A program made the position numbers and the translations under genes. A stretch of 64,000 nucleotides of DNA. Origin: Trichocoleus sp. FACHB-46 (GTDB taxonomy: Bacteria > Cyanobacteriota > Cyanobacteriia > FACHB-46). The notes below the pieces were generated by a model, which ran no database searches, was not told the origin of the DNA, and saw only the letters and a list, made by a program, of their open reading frames with translations. The DNA lies in contig NZ_JACJOD010000013.1 of the NCBI RefSeq assembly GCF_014695385.1, positions 496,001-560,000 on the forward strand, given 5' to 3'. Positions 7,778-62,592 of this stretch are shown here, in pieces (position 1 is the stretch's first letter; the number at the start of each line of letters is the position of its first letter).

Positions 7778-7848
7778 AGCGGGTGGCGAGAATCGAACTC
7801 GCATCAATAGCTTGGAAGGCTATGGTTTTACCACTAAACTACACCCGC
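7778..7848 (-). tRNA. tRNA-Gly (anticodon UCC)
   Basis: The minus strand folds into a full cloverleaf: acceptor GCGGGTG pairs with CACCCGC, a five-base anticodon stem ATAGC/GCTAT encloses CTTCCAA with anticodon TCC, and the T arm has GCGAG TTCGATT CTCGC. 71 nt including a U discriminator base; CCA is not encoded. It would read GGA/GGG codons. It lies between two convergent protein genes, 15 bp after the diguanylate cyclase stop. Confidence 0.95.
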
Positions 7849-54637: not shown

Positions 54638-54714
54638 CAGGACTTTAATATCGATTGCGAAATTCTGGACTGGCTTTCATACTCAGGGAGAAGTCAATCC
54701 AAAATTCTGCTGCC

Positions 54715-56184
54715 ATGTCATCACCACAGAAAATAGCCAGGCGGCGCTTAGCTGCTCGTCGCAACCTCTGGTTTGAACGAGTGATGGCAATTTTGGCGTC
54801 TGCTAATCTGCTGCTAGTGCTATTTGACGTGAGTTACGTACCGCTGCGGGATTTTTACCTGTTGCGCTTGCCTCGCCTAATTCCTCCTGCCGGAAACCTA
54901 ACTAAGCTATATGACCCTATAAAAGGGATTGAACCGCATCGGGACACCCAAAATTACTTGCAGGCTGTCGCTGATTTAGAAGCGCAAGTGGAGAAAACGG
55001 GGATCAGTTCTCCGGAGGTCGAGCCTTACCTAGAGCAGTTGCGTAATCTCAGTACTGAAATGGTCGATACCGATCCCTTCCGAGTCGCTGACAAGAGTGG
55101 CACTCTGGAGAAAATCAAAAATCGGATGCGAGAACACATCTACGATCAGCGCCGTCGCGTTTCTTCTCGCCAATCCTTTAATCTTTTTTGGAGTCAAGAC
55201 CATTTACTGCAGGCAGGATGGCGCGGTGAAATTGACTTCTTTAATCAAGAAATTCGTCCCTTAATTGCAACCAATTATTTTCGGCCCCTGGGGGAAACGG
55301 GAGATTTCGTCAGTTATTTTTGGCGCATTGATCTGCCTTTCGCGATCGTTTTCGGCGTGGAATTCTTAGCTCGGACTTTTTATATCAGCCGCCGCCATAA
55401 AGGTATCAGTTGGCTCGATGCTATGTTGTGGCGCTGGTATGACGTGTTTTTATGGTTACCTTTTTGGTTCTGGTTGCCCTCCTGGCGGTTGCTGCGGATT
55501 ATTCCTGTGACTATTCGCCTGCATCAAGCCAAACTGGTTGACTTAGACTTTGTGATCGCTCAGATCAATCGTGGGTTCGTAGCCAACTTCGCCGAAGAAT
55601 TAACGGAAGTGGTAGTGATCCGTGTGATTAACCAAATCCAGGGCTCAGTTCAGCGGGGTGAGGTGACACGCTGGTTATTTCGCTCACCCAGCGCCCGTGG
55701 TTACATCGACATCAACAACACCAATGAAGTAGAAGCGATCGCCACTCTGCTAGTCAAGCTGGTGGTGTATGAGGTGCTGCCGAAGATTCAACCTGACCTC
55801 GAAGCTATTCTGCGCCACAGCGTGGAGAGCGGACTCCGACAGTTGCCTCTCTACCAAGGCTTGCAACAAGTGCCGGGGGTGCGGGATTTGCCAACCCAAC
55901 TTGCCGATCAAGTGGTTACCAATGTGACTCAAACCGCTTACCATGCTTTAGTCGCTGCTTTAGAAGACCCAGTTGGAGCGCAACTCTCTAGCCAGCTTGT
56001 ACAACATTTCGCTGAAGCCCTAGGCTCAGAAGTGCAAAACCAGCAAACTCTACATAAAATTCAAGGGCTGCTCTCCGACCTCCTGGAAGAAGTGAAGGTG
56101 AACTACATTCAGCGCCTCTCGGAAGAAGACATGGAGGGTGTCCTAGAGCAAACTCATCAGCTCCATCAAATTGTTAAAAAGTAA
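54715..56184 (+). CDS. Conserved cyanobacterial membrane protein
   Basis: A 489-residue protein. ATG 54715 (MSSPQKIARRRLAARRNLWF) is preferred over an earlier start 20 codons upstream. It has a helix near 24-42, a hydrophilic region (about 60-190), then two or three aromatic membrane helices (about 225-265, WRWYDVFLWLPFWFWLPSWR), followed by a long helical C-terminal region to 489 with no motif I recognise. Positive charges at the N-terminus fit an inside orientation. Function unknown; coupled in position to the hydrolase-like gene at 53594. Confidence 0.7.
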   Translation: MSSPQKIARRRLAARRNLWFERVMAILASANLLLVLFDVSYVPLRDFYLLRLPRLIPPAGNLTKLYDPIKGIEPHRDTQNYLQAVADLEAQVEKTGISSPEVEPYLEQLRNLSTEMVDTDPFRVADKSGTLEKIKNRMREHIYDQRRRVSSRQSFNLFWSQDHLLQAGWRGEIDFFNQEIRPLIATNYFRPLGETGDFVSYFWRIDLPFAIVFGVEFLARTFYISRRHKGISWLDAMLWRWYDVFLWLPFWFWLPSWRLLRIIPVTIRLHQAKLVDLDFVIAQINRGFVANFAEELTEVVVIRVINQIQGSVQRGEVTRWLFRSPSARGYIDINNTNEVEAIATLLVKLVVYEVLPKIQPDLEAILRHSVESGLRQLPLYQGLQQVPGVRDLPTQLADQVVTNVTQTAYHALVAALEDPVGAQLSSQLVQHFAEALGSEVQNQQTLHKIQGLLSDLLEEVKVNYIQRLSEEDMEGVLEQTHQLHQIVKK

Positions 56185-56562
56185 AGGCTAAGAAATCATG
56201 CTTCAAAGCGCAATTTCCTAGAAAAATAGGTTCATCAATCTGCCTCAATGCAGACTTTCCAGGGTTGATCTAGGCCCATCTGCCTATTCCAAAATGGGTG
56301 CGCTAAACTATAATCATGTGGGTTTGGGGCTACCCAAATCTAAGCGGTGATTTCATGAAAGTAACTATTTCATGGGGAGTGGGTCGTCACCCACTTTTTT
56401 TATTGATAGGGTCTGTGATAAATCTCTACGAACTTGAGAATTTGTCAAAGTAGATCATTGTGTAGCTCCGCTTACACATCACCCCTGATAGTCCCACTTT
56501 ATAAAGTATGGATGTACAGCAAGCCGAAATAGTCGCTGGAGCTTGACGAAGGAGATAAGACA
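56185..56562. other. Intergenic region upstream of rimP
   Basis: About 380 bp. It holds the candidate small RNA unit (56309-56402) and then a second possible promoter: TATAAA at 56500-56505, about 60 bp upstream of the rimP start, with no clear -35. The rimP ribosome site GAAGGAG lies just before the ATG. Confidence 0.55.
56321..56402 (+). ncRNA. Candidate small RNA with own promoter and terminator
   Basis: A perfect TATAAT is at 56309-56314. Seven bases later begins a hairpin with an 8-bp stem including one G-T pair (56321-56328 with 56333-56340, loop GCTA), then a TTTCATGAAA palindrome (56351-56360) and an intrinsic terminator (stem 56378-56384 with 56389-56395, loop CGTC, followed by seven T). 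No open frame or tRNA is present. A transcript of about 80 nt is predicted. It resembles no cyanobacterial sRNA I can name; Yfr1 and Yfr2 motifs are not visible. A rimP-leader attenuator is the main alternative. Confidence 0.55.
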
Positions 56563-57024
56563 ATGGCTCACCCTTTGATCCCACAAATTATTGACATTGC
56601 AACGCCCGTTGCCGCAACTTTGGGATTAGATGTGGTTGGGGCTGTGTTTCACACAAATCAAAGCCCTCCGATTTTGCGCGTAGACATCCGCAACCTCCAG
56701 GAAGACACTGGACTGGAGGACTGTGAACGGATGAGCCGTGCCCTAGAAGCGGCTTTAGATCTAGCTGATATTATTCCCGATACCTATGTACTGGAAATTT
56801 CCAGTCCTGGTATTTCTCGGTCGCTTACCAGCGATCGCGAGTTCATTTCATTTAAAGGGTTTGCTGTGGTTGTCAGCACTTCAGAGCCTTACGAAGGAAA
56901 AAAAGAGTGGCAAGGACTACTGGTGCGGCGCGATGACACGGCTGTTTACATCAACCAAAAAGGGCGAGCGATCGCTATTCCTCAAGCTTTGGTGACTAGA
57001 GTGCAACTCGATGAGCAACGTTAG
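56563..57024 (+). CDS. rimP: Ribosome maturation factor RimP
   Basis: RimP aids 30S assembly. The 153-residue protein has the N-terminal RimP domain ([58 protein letters not shown] with the diagnostic SPGxxR) and a C-terminal SH3-like part (RKDWQGLL-type [13 protein letters not shown]). GAAGGAGAT precedes ATG 56563. First gene of the rimP-nusA-ylxR-infB cluster; 172 bp to nusA. Confidence 0.96.
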
Positions 57025-57196: not shown

Positions 57197-58534
57197 ATGT
57201 CAATGGTTCCTCTGCCTGGACTCAAAGTCATGATTGATAGTATTAGCCAGGAGCGTAATCTGCCGAAGCATGCTGTGCAAGCAGCATTGCGTGAAGCGCT
57301 CCTCAAAGGCTATGAGCGCTATCGACGGACTCAGCGCCTCGATCACGTCAATTTTGATGAAGAATACTTTGACAATTTTGAGGTAGAGCTTGATCCCGAA
57401 GAAGAAGGATTTCGCATTTTATCTACCAAGACGATTGTCGAAGCAGTGAATAATGCCGACCACCAAATTGCCTTAGAAGAAGTGCAAGAAGTGGCTGCCG
57501 AAGCTCAACTGGGTGACACCGTGATTTTAGATGTCACCCCTGACCAAGGAGAGTTTGGTCGGATGGCTGCCATTCAAACCAAGCAAGTACTGGCCCAAAA
57601 ACTCCGGGATCAACAGCGCAAGTTAGTCCAAGAAGAGTTTCAAGAATTAGAGAGCACAGTACTACAAGCCAGAGTGCTACGGTTCGAGCGTCAATCTGTG
57701 ATCATGGCGGTCAGCAGTGGGTTTGGTCAGCCAGAGGTAGAAGCTGAATTACCCAAGCGAGAGCAATTGCCCAACGATAACTATCGGGCTAACGCCACAT
57801 TCAAGGTTTACCTGAAGCGAGTTTCTGAAGGCTCACATCGGGGGCCGCAGCTGCTCGTATCTAGAGCTGACGCAGGCTTAGTGGTGTATCTGTTTGCTAA
57901 CGAAGTCCCAGAGATTGAAGATGAAGTCGTACGTATTGTTGCCGTAGCCAGAGAAGCTAATCCACCTTCTCGCTATGTTGGCCCGCGTACCAAAATTGCT
58001 GTCGACACCTTAGAGCGTGATGTAGACCCAGTAGGCGCTTGCATTGGGGCTAGAGGTTCTCGGATTCAAGTCGTGGTGAACGAGCTACGTGGCGAAAAAA
58101 TTGATGTAATTCGCTGGTCTCCTGACCCATCAACTTACATTGCCAATGCTCTTAGCCCAGCCCGTGTGGATGAAGTGCGCTTAGTTGATCCCGAAGAGCG
58201 CCAAGCCCACGTTCTGGTAGCCGAAGACCAGCTCAGTCTTGCCATCGGTAAGGAAGGGCAAAACGTGCGTTTAGCAGCACGTCTGACAGGTTGGAAAATT
58301 GACATCAAAGATATTGCCAAGTACGACTACGAAGCTGAGAACCGCAAGATTGAGGCTTTAGCAGAAGCACGTCAGAGATCTAGGCCAGTTGAGTATGAGG
58401 AAGACTACGACGAAGAGTACGACGAAGAGTACTTGGAAGAAGATTATGCAAACTCTCCTGTCGAAGTGGAAGCCGATGAGGATGAGGACTTAGCAACTTC
58501 TGAGACAGATGAAGCCCAGCCTGTTACTGAATAG
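57197..58534 (+). CDS. nusA: Transcription elongation/termination factor NusA
   Basis: NusA binds RNA polymerase and RNA, modulating pausing, termination and antitermination. The 445-residue protein has the N-terminal RNAP-binding domain ([23 protein letters not shown]), an S1 domain (about 130-200), KH domains (about 240-370: [23 protein letters not shown] and [21 protein letters not shown]) and an acidic tail (about 395-445) rich in Glu, Asp and Tyr, replacing the C-terminal repeats of E. coli NusA as in most non-proteobacteria. Ribosome site GGAGGT nine bases before ATG 57197. Confidence 0.96.
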
Positions 58535-58627
58535 CTTTGTCATCCAGTAGTTCCTAACTAGGTAACTACGCCAGCCAAGGATGAGGGCATCAATAACCAT
58601 CAATAGCAATGACTGGTGAATGACACG

Positions 58628-58918
58628 ATGAAGCCTAACTACCGTCGGTGCGCTAGTTGTCGGAAGCTGGCTTCCAAACAGGATTTCTGGCGCATTGTGC
58701 GGGTGCATTCCTCGCAAACGGTACAATTAGATCAGGGCATGGGGCGCTCTGCTTACCTGTGTCCTGAGGTTAGTTGCTTGCAAGCCGCCCAGAAGAAAAA
58801 TCGATTAGGGCGATCGCTGAAAGCTTCAGTACCACCCGATTTGTACCAAACCTTAGAGCAGCGTTTGGCAAAAGCAAGGGCAGTCGATGGACTAAAACCA
58901 GATCGCGCTCTAGAATGA
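58628..58918 (+). CDS. ylxR: YlxR family RNA-binding protein
   Basis: A 96-residue protein of the YlxR (DUF448) family, commonly placed between nusA and infB. It shows MKPNYRRCASCRKLASK and MGRSAYLCPEVSCLQAAQKKNRLGRSLK, the conserved double cysteine motifs and basic groove. ATG 58628 is preferred over GTG 58616. YlxR acts in RNA metabolism and RNase P regulation in some bacteria. No ylxQ (L7Ae-like) gene follows; a 497-bp gap precedes infB. Confidence 0.93.
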   Translation: MKPNYRRCASCRKLASKQDFWRIVRVHSSQTVQLDQGMGRSAYLCPEVSCLQAAQKKNRLGRSLKASVPPDLYQTLEQRLAKARAVDGLKPDRALE

Positions 58919-59415
58919 GAGAGTGGCAAATCCTCACTCTCTGAATAGGATTTAGCATGAATGTTGAGCTTGTAGGAGCATAATGACGGTATATTCTGGA
59001 ATTGACAATCAAAATACAGGGGTAAAAAACTCTTGTCAGCAGCTAGGTGATCACCAAACGCAGGTTGTAGTCTACCTGCTGAGTTTGGTTCGGGAAAGTT
59101 AACACCAGGCGAGGATTAGTCAAAACCAGTATTTACAGGTTAATGAGGTTGCCCGGAAAGCAGCACTAAGTGGCATCTCAACCGCCTGCAAACCTACAAA
59201 GATTCATGCAAGACTTTAAACAAGAAAGCTGGTTACAAGCTAGAAATAGCTGTTTGTCTTCTGGAAAACACTCTCACAGCAGAGTGCAACTTTTCTCGTT
59301 TAAAGTTAAAAGAGAAAACGACGTTTAAGATTCTAATGCGTCAGCAGATCAACCACTTGTAGTTAGTTTGCAAAACAGTAGGCCACTATGTAACACATTC
59401 AAGAGGGAAGAGTGG
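58919..59415. other. Gap between ylxR and infB
   Basis: About 500 bp with no gene found. It contains a modest hairpin GCAGGT-ACCTGC near 59061-59080 and a purine-rich AAGAGGGAAGAGTGG just before the infB start. The ylxQ gene often seen at this position in other phyla is absent. The region may carry a separate infB promoter. Confidence 0.5.
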
Positions 59416-62400
59416 ATGAATAACGGCAAAGTCAGAATTTACGAGCTATCAAAGGAACTAAATTTGGATAACAGGGATATACTAGCCGTTTGCGAACAGC
59501 TAAATATTTCAGTTAAGAGCCATAGCAGCACGATTACAGAAGGTGAGGCTGAGCGCATCCGTGCTGCTGCCGAGAAATATACAGCGACCCACTCCTCTCC
59601 TCCAAAGCCAGCTACAGTCAGTCACGGTACGGGTGCCCAAGCCCGCGAAGCTGCCCAAGCTGCTGGCAGGAAGCCACAGATTTTAGAAATTCGTAGACCC
59701 AAAACGATTAGTCCCAATCAGCAGTCTGCCGACGATGGGAATGAACCCATTCCTCAAGCAGCTAAACCTAATCCTCAACCTCCTATTAATCAACCCTTGC
59801 AAACTCCTGTCAAACCAGCGGCCCCGAGTCGTCCAGCCCGCTCTGCACCCTCTGCCCCTGAAAGTGCAGCTCCCGCTGTTTCTATTCCCAATTCTCCTAG
59901 TTCCGAGACTCCTGTTGAAGTAGCTTCACCTGCTAGTGAGCCCGAAAAGCCTCAAGTTAAGCGGCCTCCTAGCATCACAGAAGAACCTGCTCCTCGACCC
60001 AGAGTGAGTCACCAACCGACTATTCAGCCACAACAATTGGTGGCACCGCCCTCTAGACCCGCCCCTCCTACAGCAAATCGCGCTCAAGCGAATCCTGCTA
60101 ATCGTGTCGTCTTAAAGCGCGATCGCCCTGAGCGTCCTGAAGGGGGTACATCATCACCAAGTAGCCCTTCAGAGCCTAGAGTTGGCCAACCGCCCTCCGA
60201 AAGACGTTTCGACGCTCCGGCACGCCAGCGCGATCGCCCCGCTGCTGCTGGCTCGGACAGTGATGAGCGGCGTCCTCAGCCTGTGACTGAGCTGAGACGT
60301 CCTGCCAGCCCTGCTAGACCTGTACGTCCCACTGCTCCCCGCGAAGGCCAGCCTGGTGCTTCCGGCGATCGCGCTGGTGGCCACCAGGGGGAACGCTCAG
60401 AAGCGGCTGTGGGAGCAGGCCCAATCGATGAGCTGCGCCGACCCACTCTACCGCGCAATCTGAAGAAAGGTAAGAGTTGGGAAGAAGAAGAAGAGGAAAA
60501 CGCAGAAAACGCGAAGGCTAAGGCTGGGCCAAAAGCTAAGCGGCGGCTCCAGCCTGTTCTCGATGACGAGGACATTGAAATTGAAGACCTCGACATTGAC
60601 AGCATTGATGAAGAAGAGGAATTTGATGACGGCGAGGATGCTCCTGTTCAAGTGAGTCTCTCTCTAGCACGTCCTGCTAAGCCTAAATCTCGTCCAGGCC
60701 AAGCTAGACCTGTGGCTGCTGCCCCAGCTGCCCCGAAGAGTAGAAAGTCAAACAGCCCTCGCGATCGCCGGGAACGTCGGGAGCAGGAAGCCAAAGTTGA
60801 GCGCCCCACCAAGATCACGCTGACGACCGGGTTAACGGTGCAGGAGCTGGCCTCACTTCTAGCGGTCCCAGAAACAGAAATCATCAGAGCTTTGTTCTTC
60901 AAAGGTATTGCTGCCAATATCAACCAAACCCTTGACGTTCCCACCGCGAGCATGATTGCTCAAGAGATGGAAGTGGAAGTCGAGATGGCAGAGAAAGAGG
61001 CAGAAGCTCGGAAAGTTACCGAGATGCTAGATGCAGCAGATTTGGAACTTTTGCAGCGTCGTCCTCCAGTGGTTACGATCATGGGTCACGTAGACCACGG
61101 AAAAACCACCTTGCTCGACTCGATCCGCAAAACCAAAGTGGCTCAGGGAGAGGCAGGAGGCATTACCCAACATATTGGTGCCTACCACGTTGACGTTCCT
61201 CACGAAGGTGATGTGCAGCAGGTTGTCTTCTTAGATACGCCAGGTCACGAAGCCTTTACCGCCATGCGAGCACGGGGTACGAGAGTCACTGATATCGCCA
61301 TCCTGGTAGTTGCTGCGGATGATGGTGTTCGACCTCAAACGATTGAGGCTATCAGCCACGCCAAGGCGGCAGAAGTGCCTATTATCGTAGCCATCAACAA
61401 GATTGACAAAGAAGGCGCTCAGCTCGATCGCGTCAAGAACGAGTTGATGAACTATAACCTCGTACCGGAAGAGTACGGTGGTGACACCATCATGGTCCCA
61501 GTCAGTGCGATTAAAGGGGAAAATCTAGATACCTTGCTAGAAATGATTCTGCTGGTGTCAGAAGTAGAAGATCTCTACGCAAACCCAGATCGACCTGCTA
61601 AGGGAACAGTCATCGAAGCTCACCTCGACAAAGCTCGTGGTCCTGTTGCTTCTATGTTGGTCCAGAACGGTACCCTTCGTGTGGGCGATACCATCGTCGC
61701 AGGCTCAGCCTTGGGCAAAGTACGAGCAATGGTAGACGATCGTGGTCAGCGAGTCGAGGCAGCGGGTCCATCCTTTGCAGTGGAAATTTTAGGTCTAGGC
61801 GACGTTCCCGCTGCTGGTGATGAATTTGAAGTCTTCCAAGATGAGAAAGAAGCAAGAGCGGTAGCTTCGGCTAAAACCGATCAGCAACGTCAATCTCGTC
61901 TACAGCAGCAAGCGCTTGGTGCTCGTCGGATCACCCTCAACTCCTTGTCAGCTAAGGCTCAAGAAGGCGAATTGAAGGAACTCAACCTGATTCTAAAGGC
62001 GGATGTGCAAGGGTCTGTAGAAGCAATTCTGGGATCACTGCAACAACTGCCTCAAAATGAAGTGCAGGTCCGGGTGCTGTTGTCTGCGCCGGGAGAGGTC
62101 ACAGAGACTGACGTTGATCTGGCGTCAGCTAGTTCTGCCGTGATTATTGGGTTCAACACTACCCTGGCTAGCGGTGCGAGACAAGCTGCTGATGCAGCGG
62201 GTGTTGATATTCGTGAATACAACATTATCTATAAGCTCTTGGATGACATTCAAGGAGCAATGGAAGGTCTCCTAGAACCAGAAATGGTCGAAGAACCGCT
62301 GGGTCAGGTAGAAGTTCGGGCTGTCTTCCCAGTTGGTCGAGGTGCAGTAGCAGGTTGCTATGTCCTCTCTGGTAAGGCAATTCGTAACTGTAATGCGCGG

Positions 62401-62592
62401 GTTCGCCGAGGCAGCAACGTCATTCACGAGGGCATCCTAGACTCGCTCAAGCGGATGAAGGAAGACGCCAAGGAAGTCAATGCTGGCTATGAGTGCGGTG
62501 TTGGCATGAGCAGCTTCCATGATTGGGTTGAAGGGGACATCATTGAAACCTTCCGAATGGTAACGAAGCGCCGGACCTTGTCAGCTAGCTAA
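59416..62592 (+). CDS. infB: Translation initiation factor IF-2
   Basis: IF-2 is the GTPase that places fMet-tRNA on the 30S subunit and joins the 50S. The 1058-residue protein starts at ATG 59416 ([19 protein letters not shown]); the longer frame adds 16 unlikely residues. Order: IF2_N domain (1-55), a long Pro/Ala/Arg-rich disordered region (about 60-440) with an acidic block, a second N-type domain (about 465-520), the G domain with GHVDHGKT at 557-564, DTPGHEAF and NKID, then the barrel and fMet-tRNA domains (C-terminal [25 protein letters not shown]). Large size is normal for cyanobacteria. Terminator at 62661-62701. Confidence 0.97.

Follow-up and report, generated by a model that had tools for sequence, protein, structure and literature searches.

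The rimP-leader, described by Naville and Gautheret in 2010, was presented as the most widespread bacterial attenuator, present in most species (PMC2965389). It consists of a short conserved terminator, GGGc..gCCC, followed by a U-stretch and located 4-130 nt before rimP; usually, no antiterminator is visible, and NusA is the favoured regulator (PMC2965389). The main text of that study does not mention cyanobacteria; its supplementary species lists may already include them. In E. coli K-12, GGGCTTTAGGCCCTTTTTTTAT lies just ahead of rimP, the metY-rimP-nusA-infB leader contains the terminators t1/t2, and NusA reportedly limits the operon that encodes it (PMC6511841).

Cyanobacteria lack Rho, and two cyanobacterial intrinsic terminators are stimulated by NusA in vitro (PMC13289151). 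Cyanobacteria also have actuatons, i.e. abundant sRNAs that double as 5' UTRs (PMC5386190). Publications on actuatons and on sites of termination in Synechocystis do not mention the rimP leader in their main texts, and rimP and nusA do not occur in the main text of the actuaton paper (PMC5386190). Here, we analysed a 64,000-nucleotide stretch of DNA from Trichocoleus sp. FACHB-46 (the window), in which a first-pass annotation had proposed a small RNA gene ahead of the rimP-nusA-infB cluster.

Results

An element with three predicted hairpins precedes rimP

The rimP region of the window contains the following genes:

54655-56184, + strand: 509-aa ORF upstream of rimP, co-directional with it and ending 190 nt ahead of the terminator
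56563-57024, + strand: rimP (ribosome maturation factor), first gene of the operon; Pfam RimP_N and RimP C-terminal domain above cut-off
57197-58534, + strand: nusA (transcription elongation/termination factor), the proposed feedback regulator; Pfam NusA_N and KH_5 above cut-off
58616-58918, + strand: ylxR; Pfam YlxR above cut-off
59368-62592, + strand: infB (IF-2), given as the longest ORF, so that the true start may be further in; Pfam IF-2, IF2_N and GTP_EFTU above cut-off

The 509-aa ORF has no match in Pfam or NCBIfam. Its homologues (up to about 60% identity) are present in 49 of the 110 rimP loci examined, in most cases upstream of rimP and co-directional with it. The sole Rfam match in the window is a tRNA gene at 7778-7848 on the - strand.

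Between the 509-aa ORF and rimP, we distinguish the following features:

56304-56309, + strand: -10 element TAAACT (CGCTAAACTA), in a form conserved across cyanobacterial families, with CTANACT clustering in diverse leaders
56309-56314, + strand: TATAAT, overlapping TAAACT; conserved only in two genomes of the same genus
56320-56341, + strand: P1, a 5' hairpin of variable sequence, GGGTTTGGG-GCTA-CCCAAATCT (arms 56320-56328 with 56333-56341); based on the fold, complementarity permutations and compensatory changes in Nostocales
56353-56375, + strand: P2, a palindromic middle hairpin, TCATGAAA-loop-TTTCATGG (arms 56353-56360 with 56368-56375); based on the fold and the complementarity of its two boxes
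56376-56401, + strand: P3, the intrinsic terminator, GGAGTGGGT-CGTC-ACCCACTTT plus U7 (arms 56376-56384 with 56389-56397; U7 at 56395-56401); based on the fold and a core, AGTGGG..CCCACTTTTTTTATTG, conserved upstream of rimP
56402-56562, + strand: spacer from the terminator to the rimP ATG, conserved only within the genus

The TATAAT, 5' hairpin, palindrome and strong terminator that the first-pass annotation had placed within 95 bases are all present there. Similarly, its remark that the stretch contains no coding frame agrees with the finding that no ORF of at least 50 aa lies over the element on the + strand, and the 160 bp that it gave between terminator and rimP ATG correspond to 161 nt between the U-tract and the ATG at 56563; in relatives, this distance is usually 10-20 nt. 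It had also found no -35 hexamer, and a promoter scan returned neither a -35 hexamer nor a promoter pair at the leader. By contrast, its choice of -10 box is only partly borne out: TATAAT is present, but only in this genome and two congeners, and the form conserved across families is TANACT. Because the widely conserved box is TANACT (here TAAACT) and not TATAAT, we infer that the transcript may start at ~56316 and not at 56321. P1 begins at the predicted start of transcription or close to it.

The 94-nt stretch has an MFE of -35.0 kcal/mol, compared with -20.5 +/- 3.0 kcal/mol in dinucleotide shuffles (z -4.9), and none of the 200 shuffles folded as well. Moreover, P3 has the longest stem among the 14 terminator candidates detected in a scan of 50-64 kb of the window.

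The element resembles the rimP-leader and extends it

Like the rimP-leader (PMC2965389), the element lies 5' of rimP, which heads rimP-nusA-infB, and the two share a GGG(c/u)..(g/a)CCC stem, a U-stretch and conservation of the stem sequence. By contrast, the cyanobacterial stem is extended and nearly fixed (AGUGGGU..RCCCRCU), and the cyanobacterial form has three additional parts: a -10 box that is conserved, a 5' hairpin that covaries, and a middle hairpin. The spacer in the window is 161 nt, compared with 4-130 nt in the published description (PMC2965389).

The Rfam model for the rimP-leader (RF01770) stands for the same operon and the same presumed role; however, this covariance model gave no match at the window locus at any threshold tried. 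At gathering as well as loose thresholds, Rfam gave only chance matches at the locus, and RF01770 matches elsewhere in the genome were below the cut-off. Among 14 control genomes, RF01770 exceeded the cut-off in just one. Hence, the first-pass statement that no known motif was recognised holds for Rfam matches, but not for the literature, which has contained the rimP-leader since 2010 (PMC2965389).

The E. coli leader has a terminator, GGGC-UUUA-GGCCC-U7-AU, with the same core shortly ahead of rimP, as in the window; it differs in having the tandem terminators t1/t2 and a tRNA gene, where the window has a single terminator. The element is also similar to actuatons (PMC5386190) in being an sRNA-sized terminated leader that would also be a 5' UTR; what defines actuatons, however, is abundant sRNA accumulation.

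The element is linked to rimP across cyanobacterial families

In BLAST searches with the leader, the terminator was detected in distant cyanobacterial families, and the convincing matches adjoined rimP. Genomes were next gathered by their RimP protein, so that the leader itself would not determine the sample. AGTGGG-loop-CCC(A/G)CTTTTTT was present ahead of rimP in 77 of the 79 RimP-sampled cyanobacterial genomes having upstream sequence. An additional set of about one genome per family showed the element, in a strict or slightly altered form, in most of the oxygenic families. The first-pass annotation had named a lack of conserved stems and sequence in related genomes as an observation that would speak against its candidate; the element is conserved in these relatives.

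The strict pattern matched 64 of 388 class genomes with exactly one copy in each, a reversed control pattern had no matches in the same 388 genomes, and all 30 of the strict-pattern copies that were fetched precede rimP. Because the stem pattern occurs once per matching genome and before rimP in every copy fetched, the motif is not a generic terminator consensus; among the genomes compared, the P3 stem sequence is specific to rimP and not shared with other terminators.

These observations bear on whether P3 is an ordinary 3' terminator of the 509-aa ORF, unrelated to the control of rimP. The orientation of this ORF and its end 190 nt before the terminator agree with such a function, as does the presence of its homologues ahead of rimP at almost half of the loci that were examined. 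However, the identity of the upstream gene varies, and by a heuristic assignment the nearest ORF on that side runs in the opposite direction at about 25 of 107 loci; where the upstream gene is another one or is oppositely oriented, the element still accompanies rimP. Moreover, the conserved -10 box sits between the upstream gene and the terminator, and a generic terminator would not need a fixed stem sequence. In total, we consider a function as 3' terminator of the upstream gene highly improbable.

In 61 dereplicated diverse leaders, AGTGGG and CCC are mostly 5-6 nt apart, (A/G)TTG usually comes directly after the U-tract, and in 33 of the 61 the U-tract ends 10-19 nt ahead of the rimP start codon. 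Because of this short gap, no separate rimP promoter fits in these 33 leaders, and read-through must reach rimP there. In diverse leaders, CTANACT is concentrated 58-75 nt ahead of AGTGGG, and conserved sequence is found mainly in and beside the terminator stem. In Microcoleus/Tychonema-type genomes (L102, L105, L106, L109 and L111), the terminator lies 230-540 nt ahead of rimP, and sequence appears to have been inserted between the two.

The first-pass annotation had offered two readings, a free-standing RNA of about 80 nt or an attenuator. If the element were a free-standing gene for a trans-acting sRNA of this size, rimP would be transcribed from its own promoter downstream of the terminator. 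A promoter-like box, a stable fold and a strong terminator inside 95 bases fit such a gene, the 161-nt spacer found in this genus could hold the promoter, and cyanobacterial actuatons provide a precedent (PMC5386190). Nevertheless, the terminator is near the rimP start codon in most lineages, the element is found with rimP and not elsewhere, and conservation is mainly in or next to the terminator stem and not in an unpaired seed. On this comparative evidence, the attenuator is the part of the proposal that stands, and a new free-standing sRNA is improbable and that suggestion probably wrong; termination would nonetheless yield a short RNA of ~80-86 nt.

Related hairpins occur outside oxygenic cyanobacteria

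The element is absent from the picocyanobacterial genomes examined, although rimP is present. Several of the rimP upstream regions of picocyanobacteria L220-L226 have in common a GCCCGGCGGGC-like palindrome that lies about 100-130 nt ahead of rimP, with a second CGG-rich stretch closer to the gene; the palindrome is possibly a different leader.

Related hairpins are present in non-photosynthetic sister classes, nearly all with a GGG..CCC core. In hairpins of the type GAGUGGG..CCC(A/G)CUC, the U-tract is interrupted or displaced in L193, L194, L196, L210 and L211 and good in L209; in hairpins of the type GAACGGG..CCCGUUC, it is good in L200-L206 and L208 and slightly altered in L207. Retention of the hairpin despite the interrupted or displaced U-tract in L193, L194, L196, L210 and L211 hints that the hairpin itself may be recognised.

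P1 covaries, and P2 covaries more weakly

In permutation tests with dereplication as the sole correction for shared ancestry, P1 partners paired better when both came from one leader than when they were taken from separate leaders (z -4.9 to -5.8 for 49-63 diverse leaders; 0 of 5000 permutations gave complementarity as good), and the two P2 boxes were complementary with z -2.5 to -3.0 in diverse leaders, compared with about 0 for a control region pair. Moreover, compensatory changes in P1 are present in Nostocales. We conclude that, among the leaders compared, P1 covaries and P2 covaries more weakly.

We found no support for a general antiterminator. With the 3' arm of the terminator removed, the observed pairing of AGUGGG with the upstream leader was 0.62, compared with 0.66 in shuffles, and was above shuffles in 25 of 61 leaders. 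Because, across diverse leaders, the upstream region as a whole did not pair with the 5' arm of the terminator more than expected by chance, no general antiterminator appears to explain regulated read-through. A leader peptide was rejected: although TTTCATGRGAAGTGGG recurs, conservation does not extend to the ATG, and the loops differ in length without keeping the frame.

A more restricted proposal is an RNA switch in which P2 acts as an antiterminator by competing with the terminator 5' arm. In the Nostocales consensus fold, P2 is extended into GGAAGU and the terminator is shortened to GGGU..GCCC, with ACUUCUUG paired with CAGGAAGU, thus taking the base of the terminator arm. In the printed examples, the gap between the alternative folds is about 1.5-5 kcal/mol in Nostocales and smallest in L084 (0.2 kcal/mol); the covariation of the P2 boxes, and the extension into AGU of 40 of 61 predicted duplexes, would also agree with a switch. 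However, in the window leader P2 is compatible with the terminator and the terminator is favoured (-20.6 vs -15.5), the terminator fold is favoured in 61 of 61 leaders (median difference 4.9 kcal/mol), and no compensatory double changes were found in P2 of Nostocales. A switch would refine the attenuator, with which its probability overlaps, and we regard it as unlikely in general. It is possible in one lineage, Nostocales; termination set by a protein would be the simpler reading.

Discussion

We propose, with a probability of about 0.82, that 56304-56402 is the leader and premature intrinsic terminator, i.e. the attenuator, of rimP-nusA-ylxR-infB and a cyanobacterial form of the rimP-leader. 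We favour an attenuator because the element tracks rimP while the upstream gene, and even its strand, changes, and because the U-tract lies 10-19 nt from the ATG in 33 of 61 leaders. The lack of a -35 box, a spacer that at 161 nt is long enough for another promoter, the chance-level pairing between the upstream region and the terminator 5' arm, and the presence of rimP without the element in picocyanobacteria are points against it.

According to the proposed mechanism, transcription would begin a few nt past the -10 box, and the nascent RNA would fold P1, next P2 and finally the GUGGG/CCCAC terminator hairpin. We infer that most polymerases would terminate prematurely and release a leader RNA of ~80-86 nt, while the remainder would read through into rimP, nusA and infB. 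Read-through would most probably be set by NusA as the sensor: abundant NusA would stabilise the hairpin pause, raise termination and, thus, lower expression of its own operon, making the direction of control negative.

The comparison establishes the anatomy of the element, its conservation, its linkage to rimP, and the covariation of P1 and, more weakly, P2, and it supplies the boundaries, helices and phylogenetic range of the putative attenuator. New in this analysis are the TANACT -10 box, the covarying 5' hairpin, the second helix overlapping the terminator arm in Nostocales, the loss in picocyanobacteria and the related hairpins in non-photosynthetic sister classes. The element would be a native attenuator present in one copy per genome, and it is missed by the Rfam model and, hence, by routine annotation.

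The rimP-nusA-infB operon determines how much IF-2, termination factor and 30S maturation factor the cell contains. In cyanobacteria, which lack Rho, a conserved terminator ahead of nusA is a clean place for testing the adjustment of termination. More speculatively, and in our view doubtful, the element could be a cyanobacteria-wide leader of three hairpins in which P2 competes with the terminator, forming a co-transcriptional switch that responds to the NusA level, with GUGGG/CCCAC as a protein recognition site. If true, such a three-hairpin switch would give Rho-less bacteria control of their own transcription and translation factor operon.
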